Below are positions 1 through 39,410 of a stretch of 64,000 bases of DNA, in pieces. The notes below the pieces were generated by a model. The model searched no databases, was not told the origin of the DNA, and saw nothing but the letters and a program-made list of their open reading frames with translations. The DNA is from Opitutales bacterium (lineage in GTDB: Bacteria > Verrucomicrobiota > Verrucomicrobiia > Opitutales > Seribacteraceae). Positions within the stretch are counted from its first letter, which is position 1, and each line of letters begins with the position of its first letter. The DNA lies in NCBI GenBank assembly GCA_028042835.1, contig JAOFOL010000007.1, forward strand, positions 1-64,000. Direction: 5' to 3'. A program made the position numbers and the translations under genes.

Positions 1-1332
1 TTAAAAGCACCGGGGAATCCATTGCTTCCGCGAAAATCCCATTTTTCATCCAAGGCAAAGAGAGTAATTTATATCCACCTGACCGGTTCTCCTCCCCATT
101 TGGATTTATGGGACTATAAACCGGAACTTGTTAAACGTACCGATCAGGAGTGCCCAGACGAATTTATTAAGGGTAAAAAATTCGCATTCACTTCAGGTAC
201 TCCAAAATTAATGGGCACGCCCCGTAAATTTTCTCAGTATGGAAAGTCTGGTATGTGGATGTCAGATGCAATTCCTCATTTGCATCAGCATGCCGATGAT
301 CTATGTGTGATTAAGTCCATGCACACCGATCAATTTAATCATGCTCCGGCAGAATTATTTGTGCATACTGGTTTCCCTCAACCAGGGCGTCCTTCTTTTG
401 GTGCTTGGACGACTTACGGATTAGGTTCGGAGAATCAGGATCTTCCAGGGTATGTTGTTTTGATATCCAGTGGAACTCAGCCAAATGGTGGAAAGAATTC
501 ATTTAGTGCTGGGTTTATTCCTTCTGTCTATCAAGGCGTTCAGTGTCGTTCAAAAGGTGATCCTGTTCTATATGTTTCTAATCCTCCGGGTATGGATCGC
601 AGTCTCAGGCGAGCAAGTTTGGACGCCTTACGGGATTTGAATCAAAAAGCGGCGGAAGATTTTGCTCACCCTGAAACCCTCACGCGCATCGCCCAGTACG
701 AATTAGCTTATCGGATGCAGGCTTCCGTTCCCGATGTGATGGATATTTCCAATGAGTCTCAAAAGACCTTGGACGCCTATGGAGCTGAAGTGGGTGGTGC
801 AAGTCTAGGGAATAATTGCTTACTCGCTCGTAGGCTTGCTGAAAAAGGAGTGCGGTTTGTGCAGTTGTTTGACTGGGGTTGGGACTATCATGGGACCAAT
901 CCAAAGGAGGATATTCGGGATGGCTTGACCCGGAAATGTGCCACAATGGATAAGCCGATATCCGCACTTATTAAGGACTTAAAGGAACGTGGGTTGTTTG
1001 ATGAGACATTAATTATTATAGGGGGTGAGTTTGGTCGCACTCCATTTCGTGAAGGCCGCACTTCAAAAGGCAAAGTATTGGGTCGCGATCACTTTCCAGA
1101 TTGTTACACCATGATTATGGCTGGCGGAGGAGTCAAAGGCGGTCATGTTCATGGCGAATCGGATGATCTTGGCTTCAGTATCACAAAAGATCCGGTTCAT
1201 GTTCACGACCTACAGGCGACATGGATGCATCTACTTGGTTTTGATCATGAACAGCTTACTTACCGCTTTCAAGGCCGAGATTATCGCCTGACCGATGTAC
1301 ACGGTCATGTGGTGAAGGGTTTAATTGCTTAA
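1..1332 (+). CDS. DUF1501 family exported protein, 5' end outside the window
   Basis: The reading frame is open from base 1, so the gene starts upstream and only the 3' part (443 codons) is present. It belongs to DUF1501, a family with an alkaline-phosphatase/sulfatase-like fold that is abundant in PVC bacteria and of unproven activity. Family hallmarks seen are the KRVIYIHLTGSPPHLDLWDY block near the visible N-terminus, GGEFGRTPF and the downstream RDHFPDCYT/AGGGVKGG segment. Usual length is about 470-490 residues with a twin-arginine signal, so roughly 30-50 residues are missing. This subtype normally follows a DUF1549/DUF1553 cytochrome gene, which I would expect just upstream of the window. 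A TTG at 22 is only an internal codon, not a credible start. Confidence 0.88.
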   Translation, partial: LKAPGNPLLPRKSHFSSKAKRVIYIHLTGSPPHLDLWDYKPELVKRTDQECPDEFIKGKKFAFTSGTPKLMGTPRKFSQYGKSGMWMSDAIPHLHQHADDLCVIKSMHTDQFNHAPAELFVHTGFPQPGRPSFGAWTTYGLGSENQDLPGYVVLISSGTQPNGGKNSFSAGFIPSVYQGVQCRSKGDPVLYVSNPPGMDRSLRRASLDALRDLNQKAAEDFAHPETLTRIAQYELAYRMQASVPDVMDISNESQKTLDAYGAEVGGASLGNNCLLARRLAEKGVRFVQLFDWGWDYHGTNPKEDIRDGLTRKCATMDKPISALIKDLKERGLFDETLIIIGGEFGRTPFREGRTSKGKVLGRDHFPDCYTMIMAGGGVKGGHVHGESDDLGFSITKDPVHVHDLQATWMHLLGFDHEQLTYRFQGRDYRLTDVHGHVVKGLIA

Positions 1333-28567: not shown

Positions 28568-30184
28568 ATGGAAAATTTATTTAATTCTTTTTCTTATGAT
28601 GTCCGCCTTTTGAAAACATTGGTAGCGATTTTGGCACTACCTTTCATCTTAAAAGCATCCAAATCTCCAAACTTTGTGTTGGTGTACATGGATGATCTCG
28701 GTTGGGCTGAGACTTCGGTTGAAATGATCAAGGGGCGCGAGGATACGCGGAGTGATTTTAACCGGACTCCCAATGTGGAAAGACTGGCACGCGAGGGGAT
28801 GGTTCTGTCCTCCTGCTACTCACCCTCGGCTTTGTGTGCTCCGTCAAGAAATAGTCTGCTCCATGGAATGACGCCTAGTCGGTTGAGGTACACCGTACTT
28901 TCTGCGGTGGAAGCGAAGAAGCAATATCTTGGACAAATCACGATTCCGCAGGCTTTAAAAAAAGCGAACTCAAATTATCAGACTGCTCATTTTGGCAAGT
29001 GGCACAATGAAAGTATTAAGCCGACTGAAGCTGGATATGATGTCACGGATGGACCGAATGGGAACGGGCCTGGCGATTTTGATGATGACGGCAAGACGCA
29101 TCTCCCTGAAGATGATCCCAAGCGAATCTTTTCGCTTACTGATAAAAGCATCAACTTCATGAAAGAAAAGGTAGCTGCTGAGAAGCCTTTTTATTTGCAG
29201 CTCTCTCATTATGCCAACCATATTTGGCACGACTCGCTCAAGGGAACCCGTGAGAAATACAAGAAACTACCGAAGGGTAAGAAATATGAGAAAAAAGACG
29301 GAATGCCGGACGAAGAAATACCCATTGCCATGTATAACCATGGATGGATTATCAATTATGCGGCCATGCTTGATGATGTGGACCGGGCTATGGGGACATT
29401 ACTGGAGTCCATTGATGACTTGGGCATACGAGAAAACACTTACTTTGTTTTTACCTCTGATAATGGGGGCGGGTTTCGTGGGAACGCACCACTTAAGCAG
29501 GGTAAGGGTAGCTTGTACGAAGGTGGAATCCGGATGCCTTCACTTGTCCGTGGGCCCGGCATAAAAAAAGGGAGCTATTGCAACGTCCCGGTGGTGCAGT
29601 GGGACTTTCTACAGACTTTTTATGACTTGGCAGGCGGTACGGATCCACTGCCCAAGGATTTGGACGGGGGTAGCCTGCGTGATGTTTTTCAAAAAGGAAA
29701 CAAGGGACGGGTAAAACGTAATACCAAGGAATTAATTTTTCATTTTCCCTGGCATACCGGCGTCGCCGAGTCTGTTATCCGCTCCGGTAAATATAAACTG
29801 CGCAAGAACCTCGATTCTTTGAACATTGAATTGTTTGATATTAGTAAGGACCTCAGCGAAGAAAATGATTTGGCTGCGGATATGCCCGATCTTGTCCGGA
29901 AGCTTGATAAGAAACGGGCGAAGTACCTGAAAGAGGTTAATGCGGAGACGGTTACCTTAACTCGACGTAATTATGTTGAGCTTCTTGAGGGAGGGTGGAT
30001 TCAAAATGGAAGGAATCGGTTGGCTAAACTGAAGGCGGCACTGGTTACCGATCCGTCGAATAAGCAAAAAGCTTTTCAGGTGGGTGTTTCCCAGAACCAT
30101 GTTGATTTTCAGGATAAACAACTCGAACGTTCCAAACGGCTGATCCAGATGCACGAGGATCGAGGAACTGCTAACCAAAACTAA
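28568..30184 (+). CDS. S1-type sulfatase, canonical member of a tandem set of four
   Basis: The 538-residue exported protein carries the standard signature C90-A-P-S-R94, the metal motif YMDDLGW, K144-W-H146 (GKWH), SHYANH and SDNGGG, so all expected active-site residues are present. It is a paralogue of the next three genes, sharing QWDF, DLDGGSLRDVF and KGNKGRVKR. The C-terminal 80 residues are charged and helical. It starts 54 bases after ThuA and ends 5 bases before the next sulfatase. Catalysis requires conversion of C90 to formylglycine by an enzyme not encoded in this window. Substrate unknown; a sulfated polysaccharide is likely. Confidence 0.92.
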   Translation: MENLFNSFSYDVRLLKTLVAILALPFILKASKSPNFVLVYMDDLGWAETSVEMIKGREDTRSDFNRTPNVERLAREGMVLSSCYSPSALCAPSRNSLLHGMTPSRLRYTVLSAVEAKKQYLGQITIPQALKKANSNYQTAHFGKWHNESIKPTEAGYDVTDGPNGNGPGDFDDDGKTHLPEDDPKRIFSLTDKSINFMKEKVAAEKPFYLQLSHYANHIWHDSLKGTREKYKKLPKGKKYEKKDGMPDEEIPIAMYNHGWIINYAAMLDDVDRAMGTLLESIDDLGIRENTYFVFTSDNGGGFRGNAPLKQGKGSLYEGGIRMPSLVRGPGIKKGSYCNVPVVQWDFLQTFYDLAGGTDPLPKDLDGGSLRDVFQKGNKGRVKRNTKELIFHFPWHTGVAESVIRSGKYKLRKNLDSLNIELFDISKDLSEENDLAADMPDLVRKLDKKRAKYLKEVNAETVTLTRRNYVELLEGGWIQNGRNRLAKLKAALVTDPSNKQKAFQVGVSQNHVDFQDKQLERSKRLIQMHEDRGTANQN

Positions 30185-30189
30185 TTACC

Positions 30190-31899
30190 ATGAATACCAT
30201 TCGTCTAATCACGATATTTTTTCCCTTTGTCGCGTCACTTTGCTTATCGGCAAAGGCACCCAATTTTATTCTCATCTATGCCGATGATCTCGGCTATGCG
30301 GATACTTCGGTACAGATGATGGATGCAGAGCCCTCGACCCAAAATGCTTTCATTCAAACCCCCGGAATCGAGCGGCTCGCTCAAATCGGAGCCCGCTTTA
30401 CTGCTGCTTATGCCCCGTCTCCCACTTGTACCGCATCCCGGATCAGTATCCAGCATGGTCAGTCGACCGCCAAGATTCAGTACCGGAATGTTTTTGATGT
30501 TCTCTCCCAAGTTCAGCGTCCGGATGGGTATGAAGCTGAAATTACCATGGCTGAAATGCTCAAGGAGTCGGGAAAGAATTATATCACCGCTCATTTTGGC
30601 AAGGGGTGTAGTGCGATGGGACGATTTGACGAGGCCGGGTATGACCTAACCGATGAAAATCCGGGTGAACCGGGAGGCAATGGTAACGGGCATGGTTCCT
30701 ATTGGGATCCGATTAAGGACAAAACCCCGTTTCCTCCGGATAATCCGAAGCGGATGCATTCGTTACGAAAAGATGCTGCAGGCTTCCTTAAGAAACATGC
30801 CGGAAAGCAGCCCTTCTTTATGATGGTTTCGCATTACGCTCCTCATATTCCTTTTGTCTGTACTCGGGAGGCTTTTGAACGAACTAAAAAGCGGTGGATC
30901 GCAGCAGAATACGATACGAAAGGCCTGGAAGAACTAAACGATGATCCGGTTAATAACCCGAAAGGAGAAGCAAATAAAAAGATTACCTATGCCGCCATGG
31001 TGGAGGAAATGGATCTCACTCTGGTCGATGTGCTTGATGCACTTGAGCAAACAGGCGAATTGGAAAATACCTACATCATCTTTACTTCCGACAATGGAGG
31101 CGGACATTCCGAAAAGCGAAAAATTGATGGAGAAATCCGCAGGTTTAATGGTCCGTTACAGGAGGGAAAACGTTCGATTTATGAGGGTGGAATCCGTGTG
31201 CCCACCGTCATATCCGGGCCAGGGATTAAAGCGGGTTCGCAATGCGATGTGCCCATCGTACAGTGGGATTTTCTGCCCACCTTTCATGACCTGAGTGGGA
31301 GTGAGGCACCAATGCCTCCGAATACCGATGGAGGAAGTTTGCGTCAGGTATTTAAGAAAGGGAACAAGGGAAAGGTCAAACGGGTCGCACCGGGAATTAT
31401 CCATCATTATACCTGCCACTACCACCCACCAATCAGTTCAATCATTATGGGCGATTACAAATTAATGCGTCATTTAAACTCCAATGAATTTAAATTGTTT
31501 AATTTGAAAAGCGACTATCGCGAGGAAAAGAATTTGGCATCCGCCATGCCTGAGAAGATCAAGGAAATGGATCAGGCTTGTCGAAAATATGTCAAGAAAG
31601 TGGATGGCGGAACGGCCGAACAGGTTAGACAGGCACACCATAAACTGATGGATCATTTCAGCCAGCAGTCCGTATATTTCTACAGGAAAAGGTTAGCGGT
31701 CCTGAAGGAACAGAGTCTTCCTGATTTTGAAGACCGAAAGGCAAAAATGCTCAAACAGCTCAACGACGATCTCTTCAAAAATATAGTGAACAAGGAGAAA
31801 ACAAATGTACACCGAACCCTTTATTCCTGGAGAGAGGGGCCGGAAAAGAAAGAGGCAGAAAAAAATGCCCGCATAAAATTTGTTGAATTTATAGATTAA
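30190..31899 (+). CDS. S1-type sulfatase paralogue lacking the GKWH histidine
   Basis: The 569-residue exported protein is the second of four tandem paralogues. The signature is C80-T-A-S-R84 (bases 30427-30441), an accepted Ala variant. The GKWH motif, however, reads GKGC: K138 is kept, but the position of the catalytic His (His125 of arylsulfatase A) is C140. Other ligands are present: YADDLGY, SHYAPH, SDNGGG. It also has a long charged helical C-terminus. It starts 5 bases after the preceding stop, so translation is probably coupled. Activity may be altered, assisted by another residue, or lost; sequence alone cannot decide. Confidence 0.9.
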   Translation: MNTIRLITIFFPFVASLCLSAKAPNFILIYADDLGYADTSVQMMDAEPSTQNAFIQTPGIERLAQIGARFTAAYAPSPTCTASRISIQHGQSTAKIQYRNVFDVLSQVQRPDGYEAEITMAEMLKESGKNYITAHFGKGCSAMGRFDEAGYDLTDENPGEPGGNGNGHGSYWDPIKDKTPFPPDNPKRMHSLRKDAAGFLKKHAGKQPFFMMVSHYAPHIPFVCTREAFERTKKRWIAAEYDTKGLEELNDDPVNNPKGEANKKITYAAMVEEMDLTLVDVLDALEQTGELENTYIIFTSDNGGGHSEKRKIDGEIRRFNGPLQEGKRSIYEGGIRVPTVISGPGIKAGSQCDVPIVQWDFLPTFHDLSGSEAPMPPNTDGGSLRQVFKKGNKGKVKRVAPGIIHHYTCHYHPPISSIIMGDYKLMRHLNSNEFKLFNLKSDYREEKNLASAMPEKIKEMDQACRKYVKKVDGGTAEQVRQAHHKLMDHFSQQSVYFYRKRLAVLKEQSLPDFEDRKAKMLKQLNDDLFKNIVNKEKTNVHRTLYSWREGPEKKEAEKNARIKFVEFID

Positions 31900-31926
31900 T
31901 CTCAATTTCAAATAATAGAATAATTT

Positions 31927-33597
31927 ATGAAAAAGTTTTTGTTTCCATTACCTTTTCTCGTACTTTCAGTTTTTACATCCTTTGCCAAGGATTTCCCCAA
32001 TTTCATTATTATTTACATGGATGATCTGGGTTGGCATCAGACCTCTGTCCGGATGATGGATTCTGAACCGCTCTCGAAGCATTCTTTTTACAAAACACCA
32101 AACGTGGAGTGTCTAGCTGAAATGGGTATGTGCTTTTCGAATGCTTATGCACCCACTGCGACCTGCACTGGATCACGTGTTAGTATTCAGTTTGGTCAAA
32201 CCTCCGCCCGTACGCAGTATCGATATGTATTTGATGTTTACCATAAAAAGCAGCGTCCCGAGGGTTATGCCGGACAATATTCTCTGGCCGATTCCGTGAA
32301 GACCGCAGGCAAGAACTACATTACGGCCCATTTTGGTAAGGGGATGACGGAGAAGCTAAAGATGGTAAATTATGATGTCACCGATGAATACGAAGAGCAT
32401 GCACCTAACGGTAATTTACATGGTGAAAAAATTGATATTCCTACCCGCGAGGATCTTCCGCCGGATAATCCCAAGCGAATCTATTCACTTATTGATGAAT
32501 CGATGAAATTTCTTAAGAAAAATGCAGGGAAACGGCCGTTTATGATGATGGTTTCCCATTATTCTGTTCATGTACCGCATGCGGCATCCAAAAAATACAT
32601 GGATAAATGGCAGGCTAAATATGACGCCCTTGACAAACCCACGGATAAGGAGGAACTCAGGCTTTTCGAAAGGGAATGCAAACCGCTGTATGGGGCCATG
32701 TTGGAAGAAACGGATCAGCACATAGGCATCATTCTTGATTATCTTAAAAAAGTGGGAGAGTTGGATAACACTTATGTCATATTTACCTCCGATAATGGGA
32801 GTGAATGTATCCCCCGAACAAAAGAAAATCGTCGCAACAACGGTCCGTTGCAGGAGGGTAAATATTCCTGCTTTGAGGGAGGCATTCGTGTTCCCTTTAT
32901 TGTATCTGGACCCGGAATCCGAGGTGGTGCCTATTGTGATGTTCCGGTTGTTCAGTGGGATCTTCTTGCCACCCTGCACGACTTGAGTGGAAATGAGACT
33001 CCCTTGCCTGATGAAATTGATGGCGGAAGTTTGAAGAATGTCTTTTATAAGGGTAACAAGGGGAAAGTGAAACGCGGTGCACCGGGTATTATTCATCACT
33101 TTCCCAGTCACTACCAGGTACCAATCAGTGCGATCCGTATAGGAGATTATAAATTTATGCGTAATATGAACACCGATGAAAAAAAACTTTTCAATGTTGT
33201 GGTGGATTACCGCGAGAAGAATGATCTTGCCCAAAAGATGCCTAAAAAAGTGGCTTCTATGGATAAGATTCTACGAACCTATATCGAGGAAGTGGACGGG
33301 GGTGATGTGAAGGACAGTTACCAGGCTTTTTACGAAACCATGGATGATTTCGAAGGACGAGCCGAAGAGGATCATAGACGAAAGATGAAGAAACTCGAAG
33401 ATAACAAGCCTTCTGATTACCAAGAGCAAAAAGCAATCATTGATCAAGAACTCGAGCTTAAGAAACATAAATTTTTCGCAAACCGGGCAATCACAAAAAA
33501 ACAGGAAACCTGGCCTGACTGGTACGACACAGCCCGTAAAACTGCGGAAGCCGAAATCGGTATGACCAAAGGTGGGAAGCTGATCAAAAAAAAGTAA
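31927..33597 (+). CDS. S1-type sulfatase paralogue with C-T-G-S-R signature
   Basis: The 556-residue exported protein is the third of the tandem set. Its signature is C80-T-G-S-R84 (bases 32164-32178), with Gly where formylglycine-generating enzyme usually sees Pro or Ala. The GKWH equivalent is GKGM (K138, M140), so the usual catalytic His is missing. YMDDLGW, SHYSVH and SDNGS remain. The tail of about 100 residues is strongly charged and probably helical. The gene lies 27 bases after the second paralogue. Close similarity to its neighbours in QWDLLATLHDLSG and KGNKGKVKR shows descent by tandem duplication. Whether it is a working sulfatase is uncertain. Confidence 0.9.
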   Translation: MKKFLFPLPFLVLSVFTSFAKDFPNFIIIYMDDLGWHQTSVRMMDSEPLSKHSFYKTPNVECLAEMGMCFSNAYAPTATCTGSRVSIQFGQTSARTQYRYVFDVYHKKQRPEGYAGQYSLADSVKTAGKNYITAHFGKGMTEKLKMVNYDVTDEYEEHAPNGNLHGEKIDIPTREDLPPDNPKRIYSLIDESMKFLKKNAGKRPFMMMVSHYSVHVPHAASKKYMDKWQAKYDALDKPTDKEELRLFERECKPLYGAMLEETDQHIGIILDYLKKVGELDNTYVIFTSDNGSECIPRTKENRRNNGPLQEGKYSCFEGGIRVPFIVSGPGIRGGAYCDVPVVQWDLLATLHDLSGNETPLPDEIDGGSLKNVFYKGNKGKVKRGAPGIIHHFPSHYQVPISAIRIGDYKFMRNMNTDEKKLFNVVVDYREKNDLAQKMPKKVASMDKILRTYIEEVDGGDVKDSYQAFYETMDDFEGRAEEDHRRKMKKLEDNKPSDYQEQKAIIDQELELKKHKFFANRAITKKQETWPDWYDTARKTAEAEIGMTKGGKLIKKK

Positions 33598-33645
33598 TTT
33601 ACCGACTTATCTCAAAAAGATTTTAATTCTCTACATAAACTACCA

Positions 33646-35253
33646 ATGAAAATAATCACCCTCTCCACTTTACCTTTAATCCTATCGTGTTTCTGTCTGT
33701 ACGGAAAGAAAGCACCCAACTTCATCTTGATCTATGCAGATGATCTTGGCTATACCCAGACGAGTGTTCCCATGATGAAGGATCGACCTGAACTTGGGCA
33801 TTCCCTTCATCAGACTCCAAACCTGGAAAAACTGGCGGAGCGTGGTATGCGTTTTTCCAATGCCTATTGTCCTTCTCCGGTTTGCACCTCTTCCCGGGCA
33901 AGTATCCAGTTTGGAATGACCACTGCCCGGGTGGGTTGTGTTTCCATACATGATGTGGTGATGAACAAGAGGCAGGTGGATTTTGAAAAGAAACTTTCTC
34001 TGGCCGAAATGCTCAAGGAATCGGAAAAGGGGTATATCAGCGGTTTTTTTGGCAAGGGCTGTACTCCACTCGGTTGGTTCAAGGATCATGGATATGACGA
34101 GACTGATTTCATTCACAAACACCCCAATGGCAATGGACATGGGGACTGGTGGGAACCGGCAGACAAAACCCTCATCCCACTCGATGATCCCAAACGTGTT
34201 TTCAGCTTGGCCAAGACTTCCAATGCATTTCTTGAAAAGAGAGCCAAGGATAAGAAACCATTTTTTCTGACGATTTCTCATTATGCCTTGCATGTTCGAA
34301 ATATGTCGTTGAAAAGCACCCGCCGTAAATACTTGGATATGGTTGCCGAACGGGAGGGTATCGAAGAAAAAATTCCGGATATTTCAAAATTTGATCCGAA
34401 TGCAGATGAAATGCCACCGAAAATGAAGAGTCATTGGGAGCGGGCCAACTATGCGGCAATGATGGAAAATATGGATACCTCGATTGGAATGGTGCTTGAT
34501 AAACTTAAGGGACTTGGTTTGCACAAAAATACTTTTGTAATCTTTTCTTCCGATAATGGAGGTGGAGCCAGTAATAAACCACTTCAGGGAGGAAAAGCCA
34601 GGATGTGGGAGGGAGGTATTCGGGTTCCCATGATCGTGTCTGGTCCCGGTATTCCCGCAAATTCTCAGTGCGATATTCCAGTTGCCCAATGGGACTACCT
34701 TCCCACCATGCACAAACTTTCGGGAAGTGAGGCCCCACTGCCCAAGGACTTGGATGGGGTAAACTTGCGTTCTGTCCTCAAGAAGGGAAATGAGGGAAAA
34801 CTTCCCAAGCGGGATACGGGTCTGGTTTTTCATTTCCCTGCCTACTACACGATCCCGATCACTTCTTATCGGGATGGAGATTACAAATTAATGCGTCATT
34901 TAAACACCGGTGAGATTAAGCTCTTTGATGTGAACAAGGACATGGGGGAAACCAAGGATTTATCCGCTTCCATGCCAGAGAAAAGAGATTCTATGGTTCG
35001 GAACCTCGATGCTTACTTGAAGAAAGTAGGAGCTTGGACTATGGAGGAAGTCTATGAAACCCGCCTTGATGAATTAAACAAATGGATCGGAGAGAAGCAG
35101 CAGCAGATTTCGGACTGTCAGAAAAAACTTAAGAATTCCCCGGATGACAAACAGATTAAAGTACAATTGAAACAGGCACAGGATTCCCTTAGTAAATTCC
35201 AAAAGACCCGTTCCCATGTCCTGGCTAACCAGTCCTCGTCCAACTGGCGGTAA
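33646..35253 (+). CDS. S1-type sulfatase paralogue with C-T-S-S-R signature
   Basis: The 535-residue exported protein is the fourth of the tandem set. The signature is C80-T-S-S-R84 (bases 33883-33897), Ser replacing Pro/Ala, and GKWH is GKGC (K137, C139). YADDLGY, SHYALH and SDNGGG are kept. The last 70 residues look like a coiled coil rich in Lys and Gln. It is 48 bases after the third paralogue and 53 before the kinase gene. Conservation of the metal ligands argues against a simple pseudogene even though the catalytic signature has drifted. A hairpin lies between it and the kinase. Confidence 0.9.
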   Translation: MKIITLSTLPLILSCFCLYGKKAPNFILIYADDLGYTQTSVPMMKDRPELGHSLHQTPNLEKLAERGMRFSNAYCPSPVCTSSRASIQFGMTTARVGCVSIHDVVMNKRQVDFEKKLSLAEMLKESEKGYISGFFGKGCTPLGWFKDHGYDETDFIHKHPNGNGHGDWWEPADKTLIPLDDPKRVFSLAKTSNAFLEKRAKDKKPFFLTISHYALHVRNMSLKSTRRKYLDMVAEREGIEEKIPDISKFDPNADEMPPKMKSHWERANYAAMMENMDTSIGMVLDKLKGLGLHKNTFVIFSSDNGGGASNKPLQGGKARMWEGGIRVPMIVSGPGIPANSQCDIPVAQWDYLPTMHKLSGSEAPLPKDLDGVNLRSVLKKGNEGKLPKRDTGLVFHFPAYYTIPITSYRDGDYKLMRHLNTGEIKLFDVNKDMGETKDLSASMPEKRDSMVRNLDAYLKKVGAWTMEEVYETRLDELNKWIGEKQQQISDCQKKLKNSPDDKQIKVQLKQAQDSLSKFQKTRSHVLANQSSSNWR

Positions 35254-35289: not shown

Positions 35290-35307
35290 CAGCTAAGTTC
35301 TTAGCTG
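35290..35307 (+). promoter_or_regulatory. Perfect inverted repeat abutting the kinase start codon
   Basis: CAGCTAAG (35290-35297) and CTTAGCTG (35300-35307) are exact inverted repeats with a 2-base centre; the last base is the G of the proposed GTG start. No T-run follows, so it is not an ordinary terminator. It could hide the start codon, act as an operator, or be chance. Confidence 0.5.
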
Positions 35308-36296
35308 TGGAAATTGAGCAGGTAGATAGTTTTATTTTAGAACGAACCAACGCGAATCGGATTACGAACCGGATTGAAGTTCAGAGCCTTTGGAGTGGAT
35401 ATGGGAGTATTCAACGGGTGGACTTGGATGGAGGTGAGTTTTCGAGTATTATCGTGAAGCATGTTCAGCCCGGCAGAGGATCTCACCCAAGAGGATGGAA
35501 TACAGATCTGTCTCACCAGCGAAAACTCAAATCTTACCAAGTGGAAGCAAATTGGTACCGAAAACAGGATGTGGATTGTAAAAATGGCTTCGCACGGATA
35601 CCGTCTTGCTTGGGAACGAAGAAGGAGGGAGATGAGGTATTACTTCTATTGGAAGATTTAGATGCTTCTGGATTTAAAGGCCGTAAGAGTTTCGTCAATC
35701 AGACTGAGTGGGAGGCATGTGTCAGTTGGTTAGCTACCTTCCATGCCGAGAATTTGGATGGGGATGCGACTGGGCTTTGGGAGAGTGGAACCTATTGGCA
35801 TTTGGAGACGAGACCCGACGAATTGGAGCGGTTGGATGATCAGGTAATTAAAAAGGCAGCCCCCGCGATTGATACCAAGTTAAAAACCAATAAGTTTCAA
35901 ACCCTTGTTCATGGCGATGCCAAGTTGGCAAACTTCTGTTTCAATTCAGACGGAACTCGGGTGGCGGCAGTCGATTTTCAATATGTGGGTGGCGGTTGTG
36001 GGATGAAAGATTTAGCCTATTTTGTAGGGAGCTGTTTTCGAGATGAGGAAGCGGAAGAAATGGAGGTTGAGGTCCTTAATTATTATTTTACTGAGTTTCG
36101 AAAATCACTTGCACGAATAAATAGTCAAGTGTCCGGCAGAGAAGTTGAGCAGGACTGGCGCCCTTTATACCGTGTCGCTTGGGCTGACTTTCATCGTTTT
36201 ATGAAAGGTTGGAGTCCCGGGCACTGGAAGCTAAGCGACTACAGTGAACGGGTGACCCGAGAAGTAATTGAATCCTTGCGAGAGGAAAACGCCTGA
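35307..36296 (+). CDS. Aminoglycoside/choline-kinase-like phosphotransferase
   Basis: The 329-residue cytoplasmic protein has the APH/ecdysteroid-kinase-like fold: [10 protein letters not shown] holds the nucleotide-binding Lys (about residue 51), [11 protein letters not shown] is the hinge, [10 protein letters not shown] gives the catalytic HGD (202-204) with N209, and AVDFQ gives the metal Asp (223). It probably phosphorylates a small hydroxylated molecule or sugar; the substrate is unknown. The GTG start is the only one giving the full N-terminal lobe. Its stop overlaps the next ATG (TGATG), so kinase and phosphatase are made together. Being intracellular, it differs from the exported proteins before it. 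Confidence 0.8.
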
Positions 36297-37153
36297 TGGA
36301 TCTCAATCGGCTAACCACTCATGCGGTAAATGCTGCTCTTGATGCGGGTAATTTGATCAAACGTTATCAGGATATTGAAGTAGAAGTTTTACATAAGGAT
36401 GGGGGAGGCACTTATGCTTCTCAAGTGGTGACCGAGGTGGATCAAAAAGCTCAGGATGCGGTCTTACGATTTCTTAAGCCGACTTGTTGTGAGTTTGATT
36501 TGGCATTACTAACTGAGGAAAGTGAAGACGATTGTTCCCGATTCGAGAAGAATTATTTTTGGTGTATTGATCCTTTGGATGGCACTCTGCCTTTCACTCG
36601 AAAAGAACCGGGCTATTCCGTTTCTATCGCTTTGGTTGCCCGGGATGGTTCGCCTCAAATCGGAGTGGTCTATGACCCGGTTCATGATATTCTTTGGCAG
36701 GCAACCAAAGGATACGGGGTGAAAAGGAATGGTATACCATGGAAAATGCAATCGAAGGGAAACGAGTTGGTCTTTACTTACGATCGAAGTTTTGAAGATC
36801 ATCCTGAACGATTACGGGTGTTAAGGGAGTTGGAAAACTATGCTGGTTCAGTTGGACTGCAAGGGGTAGTGGCGACACAATTCGGTGGAGCTGTGATCAA
36901 TGCCTGTCATTCTCTGGAATCGGCTCCCGGCTGTCATTTTAAATTTTCCAAGCCACAGGAGGGTGGGGGTAGTATTTGGGATTATGCAGCCACCGCTTGT
37001 CTGTATGAAGAGGCGGGTGCTGAAGTAGGCGATGTGCATGGTAATTCACTTGATTTAAACCGGCAGGATTCAACTTTTATGAATCATGGGGGTGCTGTTT
37101 ATGCAACGGATCAAGCACTAGCGGTTAAAATTAGGGAAATTCTGAGTCTTTAA
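36296..37153 (+). CDS. Inositol-monophosphatase/CysQ-family phosphatase
   Basis: The 285-residue cytoplasmic protein shows the metal-dependent IMPase motifs: TEVDQ (46-50), LTEES with E74/E75, IDPLDGT (91-97) and a late WDYAATACLYEEAGAEVGD. Family members hydrolyse inositol phosphates, 3'-phosphoadenosine 5'-phosphate or sugar phosphates. CysQ-like PAP phosphatase would fit sulfur metabolism, but the exact substrate cannot be read. It overlaps the kinase stop by one base, suggesting a paired phosphorylation/dephosphorylation or salvage step. It is the last gene of the run that begins with the sigma factor; palindromes that could be regulatory follow at 37170-37222. Confidence 0.85.
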   Translation: MDLNRLTTHAVNAALDAGNLIKRYQDIEVEVLHKDGGGTYASQVVTEVDQKAQDAVLRFLKPTCCEFDLALLTEESEDDCSRFEKNYFWCIDPLDGTLPFTRKEPGYSVSIALVARDGSPQIGVVYDPVHDILWQATKGYGVKRNGIPWKMQSKGNELVFTYDRSFEDHPERLRVLRELENYAGSVGLQGVVATQFGGAVINACHSLESAPGCHFKFSKPQEGGGSIWDYAATACLYEEAGAEVGDVHGNSLDLNRQDSTFMNHGGAVYATDQALAVKIREILSL

Positions 37154-37247: not shown

Positions 37248-39410
37248 ATGAAAAATCTAATCCTTTTTTTACAAACATCCTGTTTTATTTTAGCCAGTGT
37301 TGCCTTTGGAGCGGAGCGCCCCAACATTCTTTATTTATATGTGGATGACCTCGGTTGGGGCTCCATCGGTCCGAATGGTCAAGCTGAGAGAAAAGCGGCA
37401 GGTAAGCCCTATGTGCTTACACCGAATTTGGACCGCTTGGCGGAGCAGGGAATCAATTTTACCCGAGGTTATGGATGTACGGTTTGCTCACCTGCACGGT
37501 CATCCCAGCAAACCGGGTTTCATCAGGGGTATACCTTTGCTGACCGTAATGATCCGGATAATGCCAAGAAGGCGATCCGTAAGGATGATATTACCATGGG
37601 TGATGCACTTACCAAGGCTGGCTATGCTACCGGATATTGGGGAAAGTGGGGATATGGCGGATCCAAGGATATGCAAAATCCGACTATCGATAACGTGCAG
37701 ACTCTTCCTACTTCTCACGGATACAAGTTTGTTGTCGCGGAACTCCATCATGTACGAGCCCATACCTTTTTCCAGCCAACCCTTTGGAATGCACCTTCGA
37801 AACGAAGGCTAGCCGGAGGGTTGGAGCTCAAGGCTAACAGCATGGCAAAATACAGGAATCAACAGTCTTATTCGAATTATCCTGCATTTCAAAATCATCC
37901 TGAATACCCCGATCCTGCCTATTGTGATGATGTTTATGCATTTGCCTGCCTCGATTTTGTGAGGAATCAGGCACAAGAATACAATCGTTCAGGTAAGCCA
38001 TTTTTTGGCTTATTTGCCGCCCAGATTCCTCATGCTCCTTTTAAGGAAGTGGAAAAACTTCCGAACTGGGATCATGACTACAAGGACCAATCCTTTTTTA
38101 AAAAATTATCCCCCCAATCCCAACAGTGGTGTGCCATGGTCACCCGGATTGATGCTCATTTTGGTAATATTCTGGAAGCCTTGGAAGACCCGAATGGAGA
38201 TGGAGATAAGTCAGATTCTGTAGCTGATAATACGCTGGTTGTTTTTCAGTCGGATAACGGCGGTCCGGGTGGGAGCAATCGTGAACAATTAGACGCGAAC
38301 GGAGGACTTCAGGGATCAAAGGGAAGTATTTATGAGGGAGGTATTCGAGTACCCACAATTATGCGATGGTCAGAGAAAATTACTCATCAATCTAAGCTGA
38401 AAAAAGGTTCGAGTACTGACTTGGTTATGGATTGTTCGGATTTGCTACCCACTTTTTGTGAACTTGCAGGAGTACCGATTCCTCTTGGGGTGAGCGGTGT
38501 TTCCCTTGCTCCCACTCTTACAGGTAAAGGCATTCAACGCCCAAGAGATTATTTGATTCACGAAGCAGGTAATCAGGCGTCGATTATTCAGGGGCAGTAT
38601 AAATTAATTCGCCCGCGCGGAGATACGAAGTCATCGGCAAGCAATAAAAAGAAAAAGCGAAAAAAGGAACCCGTCACCATGCTTTTTGATCTGAATACTG
38701 ATCCTGCAGAGCAAAACAACCTTGCTAATGTTCGCCCACAATTGGTTAAAAAGCTTAACGCATTGCTGACTGCGGAACGGGTGGATGAACCTGCAGGGTT
38801 TGCCAATACCTATCATACGTGGAACGCGAAAACCAAAAATGGTTCCCTTGGTTCGCCTTCGAATTGGTCGGAGTATATTTATGAAAATGCGGAAGTGATG
38901 TATATGAAGGAAAGTGGCGCACCCAAATCTCATTGGTGTGCTCGGATTCGAGAGGGAACGGCGGTCGCATTGAAAGAAACTAATTTTCTGGGCCTCGAGG
39001 TAAGCGGAGTTCTTGTCGTAAAGAAGGGAGCAAAAGTAAGTGCAAGAAATGAACTGAGAGTCTCTCATGCAGGGCAAGTCAACCTGCAAGGAGGGATGAT
39101 CGGATCTGATCGTTGGCTTGAGATAAAAAAGGGGGGAGTCCTTAAGGGACACGGAATGATTAAAGGAGATCTTTATAACCAAGGAACATTTGCTTTGCAG
39201 ATGGACAAACCTATACAGGTTGATGGTTCCGTGAATTTGTCCGGTAGGTTAGAGTTATTAAAAACAGGTACAATCAATAATGGTGAAAGTTATACCGTAC
39301 TTCAGGCAAATTCGGTTTCAGGAGGTTTTGAGAATGATGAGGTGTCAATTGGCGGTAAAAGTTTTTCGGTCTTCTACACTCCGACCTCGGTGACCGTGAA
39401 AGCAAAGTAG
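37248..39410 (+). CDS. S1-type sulfatase with C-terminal beta-repeat tail
   Basis: The 720-residue exported protein has a signal peptide and the signature C80-S-P-A-R84 (bases 37485-37499). The metal motif is YVDDLGW, GKWGYGG replaces GKWH, and QSDNGG is present. After about residue 530 comes a tail with alternating short hydrophobic strands and glycines (VSGVLVVKKGAKVS, GGVLKGHGMIKGDLYNQGTF), resembling autotransporter-associated beta-strand repeats common in Verrucomicrobia. It may form a solenoid that holds the enzyme at the surface or on substrate. The K/R-rich linker near residues 463-475 is unusual. It is flanked by intergenic regions of 94 and 172 bases, so may be monocistronic. Confidence 0.88.
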   Translation: MKNLILFLQTSCFILASVAFGAERPNILYLYVDDLGWGSIGPNGQAERKAAGKPYVLTPNLDRLAEQGINFTRGYGCTVCSPARSSQQTGFHQGYTFADRNDPDNAKKAIRKDDITMGDALTKAGYATGYWGKWGYGGSKDMQNPTIDNVQTLPTSHGYKFVVAELHHVRAHTFFQPTLWNAPSKRRLAGGLELKANSMAKYRNQQSYSNYPAFQNHPEYPDPAYCDDVYAFACLDFVRNQAQEYNRSGKPFFGLFAAQIPHAPFKEVEKLPNWDHDYKDQSFFKKLSPQSQQWCAMVTRIDAHFGNILEALEDPNGDGDKSDSVADNTLVVFQSDNGGPGGSNREQLDANGGLQGSKGSIYEGGIRVPTIMRWSEKITHQSKLKKGSSTDLVMDCSDLLPTFCELAGVPIPLGVSGVSLAPTLTGKGIQRPRDYLIHEAGNQASIIQGQYKLIRPRGDTKSSASNKKKKRKKEPVTMLFDLNTDPAEQNNLANVRPQLVKKLNALLTAERVDEPAGFANTYHTWNAKTKNGSLGSPSNWSEYIYENAEVMYMKESGAPKSHWCARIREGTAVALKETNFLGLEVSGVLVVKKGAKVSARNELRVSHAGQVNLQGGMIGSDRWLEIKKGGVLKGHGMIKGDLYNQGTFALQMDKPIQVDGSVNLSGRLELLKTGTINNGESYTVLQANSVSGGFENDEVSIGGKSFSVFYTPTSVTVKAK

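Follow-up and report, generated by a model that had tools for sequence, protein, structure and literature searches.

The established mechanism of the S1 sulfatases begins with the attack of a hydrated formylglycine on the sulfur of the substrate; the leaving sugar receives a proton, and a histidine takes the proton of the second hydroxyl, whereupon the sulfate leaves (PMC5066984, PMC10154612). The base that releases sulfate from the formylglycine (FGly) has been assigned in Pseudomonas AtsA to His115, the histidine of the GKWH motif, and histidine is 81% conserved at this position among the 4,058 S1 sequences of the SulfAtlas paper (PMC5066984). Here we describe three adjacent sulfatase genes of an Opitutales bacterium (Verrucomicrobiota), termed B, C and D, which lack this histidine and for which we propose that another, in a downstream NGNxHG loop, has taken its place in the active site. 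The genes lie in a window of 64,000 nucleotides (positions 1 to 64,000 of the forward strand of contig JAOFOL010000007.1, GenBank assembly GCA_028042835.1), where they are intact open reading frames that together exactly span 30190-35253; a canonical paralogue, A, stands directly upstream of this range.

The closest solved relatives by sequence profile are the S1_16 enzymes AMOR_S1_16A (9FO1; E-value 1.3e-70), 6UST, BT3057 (7OZ9) and BT3796 (7OZA), which are also among the closest by fold (Z scores of 39-41) and have the same core residues as B, C and D, together with a loop histidine that aligns with that of NGNxHG. Two histidines of 9FO1, His125 and His149, are both placed near the sugar in the 0 subsite, a feature characteristic of S1_16 (PMC11760155). 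Of this pair B, C and D hold only the His149 equivalent: 9FO1 and 6UST keep the GKWH-position histidine, whereas B, C and D have Cys, Met and Cys there, respectively. They further differ in having Val, Val and Ile in place of the conserved pocket tryptophan (W79 of 9FO1), and their identity to 9FO1 is only 30-33%. Since they lack this tryptophan and have one histidine of the pair, not two, we make no claim of S1_16 membership for B, C and D. Pseudomonas aeruginosa AtsA (PAS, 1HDH) and human ARSA share with them the fold and the set of FGly, Arg, Lys, His, Lys and calcium, but have the histidine base (His115 and His125, respectively) that B, C and D lack.

Several described enzymes likewise do without the GKWH histidine. 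The characterised S1 sulfatases BT1636 (S1_20; GKWAGG) and BT4683 (S1_4; GKWGLG) lack it, but they retain the tryptophan of GKW where B, C, D and their relatives have GKG, match with lower Z scores (36.5-38.6), and present a loop context unlike NGNxHG. The FGly-dependent phosphonate monoester hydrolase BcPMH has Thr107 at this site, but differs from B, C and D in having Tyr105 for the lysine and a histidine for the asparagine metal ligand (PMC4014121), residues that in B are Lys138 and Asn302. A first-pass annotation of the locus had held the histidine to be needed for formylglycine turnover in known S1 enzymes; it is indeed the assigned base of AtsA, but its 81% conservation, the threonine of BcPMH and its absence from BT4683 and BT1636 indicate that not all S1 enzymes need it. 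A literature search for a stated loss of the GKWH histidine in S1 sulfatases found nothing direct.

The sequences bear out the observation with which that annotation began, namely that A keeps GKWH and that the second to fourth paralogues read GKGC, GKGM and GKGC, and also its statement that the metal ligands and the rest of the site are conserved. All four proteins have the calcium ligands (D32, D33, D301 and N302 in B), the nucleophile C80, and R84, K138, H219 and K327, and in a nine-member alignment of GKG proteins the cysteine, the arginine, the lysine, the sulfate histidine and lysine, and the calcium ligands are invariant. With the PF00884 sulfatase domain of Pfam, B, C and D score 116-135 bits where the curated cut-off is 25, and A is also well above it. 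Among 76 distinct GKG sequences, a sample that includes some near-copies or fragments, the residue before the old histidine site (position 140 of B) is always glycine where GKWH has tryptophan, while position 140 itself is Cys in 44, Met in 13, Ile in 9, Ala in 6, Ser in 2 and Val in 2. It therefore has no conserved role, and with this variation across the clade Cys140 or Met140 can be rejected as a new base and as a ligand of the metal.

What the clade does conserve emerged from a screen for polar residues conserved among GKG proteins and not among GKWH proteins. The histidine of the NGNxHG loop, 24-28 residues downstream of the GKG site, is present in 43/43 GKG and 0/10 GKWH sequences, and A has a proline at this position. 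A second such column, His366 of B against Tyr, Phe or Cys, falls in the distal TFHDLSG helix, and a GKWH relative has histidine there too. In the larger sample 72 of the 76 GKG sequences have the loop histidine (His168 of B) and no histidine at position 140 or 141. In the remaining four His168 is gone and a histidine stands at position 141, three residues after the lysine (GKGVHE or GKGIHE; L260:7655-9310, L261:7253-8677, L122:10646-12247 and L123:10649-11827); both or neither of His168 and His141 occur in none (0/76). These GKG[VI]HE members form a subclade with support of 100/100, nested within the His168 group on branches with supports of 97/92 and 89/85, and the history is most simply explained if His168 was lost and a histidine gained one residue past the old site. 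A histidine three residues after the lysine is also found in the GKIFH and GKIYH (GK[IV][FY]H) sulfatases of the window's genome, which we take to resemble iduronate-2-sulfatase.

Three MAFFT modes agree in pairing His168 with His149 of 9FO1 and the corresponding histidine of 6UST, and position 140 with His125 of 9FO1. An AlphaFold2 model of full-length B is of high quality (predicted local distance difference test, pLDDT, 94.5; predicted template modelling score, pTM, 0.93) and matches S1 sulfatase structures at Z 35-43. When residues 22-168 of B are folded alone, the weak model (pLDDT 74) places its last residue, His168, on residue 148 of 9FO1 and 150 of ARSA, in agreement with the alignment to within one residue. 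The latter, Ser150, is presumably an active-site residue of ARSA; a literature search gave no text for it. The annotation had also raised the case of another histidine occupying the site, and the alignments suggest as much: the NGNxHG histidine, present in all GKG members but the four with GKG[VI]H, aligns with an active-site histidine of S1_16.

A further peculiarity of the clade, missing from the first-pass annotation, concerns formylglycine maturation. The accepted motif is C-x-[PA]-x-R, with a third position that in SulfAtlas is Pro in 87%, Ala next, and each other residue in less than 1% (PMC5066984). B has the permitted alanine (CTASR), and C and D, with CTGSR and CTSSR, fall outside this motif and also outside its form [CS]-x-[PA]-x-R; overall, 41/75 sequences of the GKG clade, these two included, have Gly or Ser at this position. 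Orthologues of one gene vary freely between Pro, Ala, Gly and Ser, those of D including CTPSR and those of B including CTGSR. Judged from this pattern, the two motifs are likeliest the sign of a tolerant maturase. The window's genome encodes several candidates for the maturase, proteins that carry the FGE-sulfatase domain (PF03781), and a literature search for the maturation of CxGxR or CxSxR motifs found nothing direct. Unusual motifs recur elsewhere among the sulfatases of this genome: CSTFR, CSGSR, CMGSR, CWVSR and CWTTR (L096, L003, L093, L029 and L090, respectively).

Within their genus, family and order, many genomes have orthologues of B, C and D, and the arrangement A-B-C-D is preserved there in part or in full; orthologues are also found in Planctomycetota (Rhodopirellula, Rubripirellula), Kiritimatiellota, Lentisphaerota (including the cultured Lentisphaera marina) and Akkermansiaceae. 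The GKG proteins form one monophyletic group in two trees (supports 100/97 and 100/99), with the A group nearby. Pairwise ratios of nonsynonymous to synonymous substitution (dN/dS) are 0.04-0.12 for B, C and D and 0.07-0.24 for A, and all four genes are therefore under strong purifying selection. The GKG clade is an old, widespread and well-conserved enzyme branch spanning Verrucomicrobiota, Planctomycetota, Lentisphaerota and Kiritimatiellota. Sequencing or assembly error and chance are ruled out as sources of the replacement, which orthologues in independently assembled genomes repeat under purifying selection. A viral origin was likewise rejected, as a scan of viral contigs gave no relative. 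In genome G021 the C orthologue (L064:2812-4808) is broken across two frames, which may reflect decay of C there or an assembly error.

We favour, at about an even chance, a reading in which B, C and D come from one anciently duplicated clade of S1 formylglycine sulfatases, are active and secreted and depend on calcium, their active site having been rearranged around a relocated histidine. In the mechanism proposed for them, the change of Trp to Gly would free space for the loop His168 beside the formylglycine hydrate, where it would remove the gem-diol proton, so that sulfate is expelled and the aldehyde regenerated. The other steps would be those of S1 enzymes: an Asp-activated FGly would attack the sulfur, His219 and Lys327 would supply the proton for the leaving sugar, and the sulfate would be held by Lys138, Arg84 and calcium; the three paralogues would act on different positions or sugars of one glycan. 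More tentatively, and with the balance tipping against it, the formylglycine-regenerating base may have moved at least twice within one clade, from GKWH to the NGNxHG loop histidine and back to a site next to the old one in GKG[VI]H, coupled to maturation at CxGxR and CxSxR motifs.

Several observations weigh against giving His168 this part. S1_16 has both histidines, so that His149, and with it His168, can serve in sugar recognition only, with no role in FGly turnover, and certain S1 enzymes are active with neither of the two. The complementarity of His168 and His141 amounts to about two evolutionary changes and not to 76 independent ones. A profile alignment shifts the loop of 9FO1 by a few residues, and the structural alignment of the 22-168 fragment has Z below 5 and a pLDDT of about 59 at its end, for which reason this weak model can be taken as corroboration only. 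A serious rival, possible though on the doubtful side, is the view that the enzymes are active S1 sulfatases whose His168 serves sugar recognition in the 0 subsite alone and that FGly turnover proceeds via Lys138 or water, with no dedicated histidine base, as must be so in the S1_4 and S1_20 enzymes without the GKWH histidine. In its favour, His125 and His149 occur together in S1_16, neither histidine is found in relatives with GKWG and GKWD, and BT1636, which like BT4683 lacks that of GKWH, has measurable kinetics (an apparent kcat of 0.048 per s and a KM of about 30 uM; PMC13383068) and uses a loop histidine to recognise the axial O4 of galactose (PMC10154612). That view on its own leaves unexplained why His168 is lost exactly where a histidine appears three residues after the lysine, and why the GKWH-bearing A has proline at the loop position. 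Whether His168 is a base or a sugar contact, B, C and D most probably function as sulfatases.

The remaining explanations fare worse. The annotation had suggested a new activity, and a different chemistry within the alkaline phosphatase (AP) superfamily, be it phosphonate monoester, phosphodiester or sulfonate hydrolysis, could be argued from BcPMH, in which Tyr105 and Thr107 are the equivalents of the lysine and the histidine (PMC4014121). We regard this as improbable: B, C and D retain Lys138 and Asn302 where that enzyme has Tyr and His, group with the S1 carbohydrate sulfatases in both sequence and fold, and are located in an array of sulfatases. We take them for an S1 clade with a probably relocated active-site histidine and not for a new activity class. 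The annotation had also offered a regulatory or binding role, which the intact site and the dN/dS of 0.04-0.12 make unlikely; that the paralogues are catalytically dead or purely binding, as might be suggested by the missing residue to which a catalytic part is assigned and by the non-consensus maturation motifs of C and D, we hold to be highly improbable, since the nucleophilic cysteine, the motif arginine, the lysine and the calcium ligands are kept throughout the clade and across phyla, and the dN/dS of B, C and D is as low as that of A. An equally slight chance attaches to the idea that the formylglycine-generating enzyme does not accept CTGSR and CTSSR, and that C and D keep an unmodified cysteine and a thiol-based mechanism with Cys140 as a possible partner. 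It would account for a third position that is Gly or Ser so often in the clade and in less than 1% each in SulfAtlas. Against it, the switching of orthologues between Pro, Ala, Gly and Ser indicates that this position reflects tolerance and no new chemistry, the residue at 140 is variable, the motif cysteine and arginine are invariant, and odd third residues also occur in other sulfatases of the genome.

The genome that contains the window, of a lineage of marine Verrucomicrobiota, is 63% complete at 2.1 Mb and has about 65 sulfatase genes, among which the GKWH histidine is often gone: GKWG, GKWQ, GKWW, GKFG and GKGW are also found. A separate sulfatase group with GKG[WY]SPG (L103:7079-8605, L129:1925-3427) also lacks it; its nearest solved relative, the S1_8A enzyme, aligns LMGPKQ at the GKGWSP site, again without the histidine, and its loop is too different for comparison. 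Upstream of A to D (Table 1) are genes for a FecR-domain protein, a DUF7133/cytochrome c protein and a ThuA protein; downstream are those for an EcKL/APH-type kinase, an inositol-monophosphatase-family protein, a GKWG sulfatase, a GFO/IDH/MocA oxidoreductase and an amidohydrolase. In several relatives, too, the kinase and phosphatase genes (35307-37153, in this order) stand as a pair that separates D from the GKWG sulfatase; possibly they serve the phosphorylation and dephosphorylation of the substrate, or the pair is unrelated. The GKWG sulfatase, fifth of the array (37248-39410), has CSPAR, GKWG and not GKWH, and a long C-terminal extension, and stands next to the cluster in relatives too. 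No glycoside hydrolase was identified among the scanned genes. Only broadly do we infer a sulfated, probably algal, glycan as the substrate, this being the default guess from the lineage (PMC8857213).

Table 1. Sulfatase genes A to D and their motifs (nucleotide positions in the window; residues are those of each protein).
Feature	Position (nt)	Residues	Strand	Remarks
Sulfatase A	28568..30184		+	Canonical S1 paralogue; CAPSR, GKWH, NGNGPG (Pro at position of proposed relocated His); PF00884 E-value 1.6e-39
GKWH of A	28994..29005	143-146	+	Catalytic Lys and His
Sulfatase B	30190..31899		+	CTASR, GKGC, NGNGHG (His168); PF00884 E-value 2e-33
CTASR of B	30427..30441		+	Formylglycine motif, permitted Ala variant (PMC5066984)
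GKGC of B	30598..30609	137-140	+	Lys kept; Trp-His to Gly-Cys
NGNGHG of B	30679..30696	His168	+	Proposed relocated active-site His; aligns with His149 of 9FO1 (S1_16)
Sulfatase C	31927..33597		+	CTGSR (non-consensus maturation motif), GKGM, NGNLHG (His165)
CTGSR of C	32164..32178		+	Formylglycine motif; Gly, outside C-x-[PA]-x-R
GKGM of C	32335..32346	137-140	+	
NGNLHG of C	32407..32424	His165	+	
Sulfatase D	33646..35253		+	CTSSR (non-consensus maturation motif), GKGC, NGNGHG (His165)
CTSSR of D	33883..33897		+	Formylglycine motif; Ser, outside C-x-[PA]-x-R
GKGC of D	34051..34062	136-139	+	
NGNGHG of D	34126..34143	His165	+	

Algal-polysaccharide degraders from at least four phyla carry the clade, as does the cultured species Lentisphaera marina, and these proposals are therefore testable. 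If the CTGSR and CTSSR motifs are matured, the substrate range of the formylglycine-generating enzyme would be wider than the accepted motif, which is relevant to annotation and to protein engineering with aldehyde tags. If His168 is indeed the base, the habit of calling sulfatases with a broken GKWH inactive would need correction, for up to about one-fifth of S1 sequences by the 81% figure, and the clade would offer a compact natural case of a catalytic residue changing its position in the sequence while the reaction stays the same.

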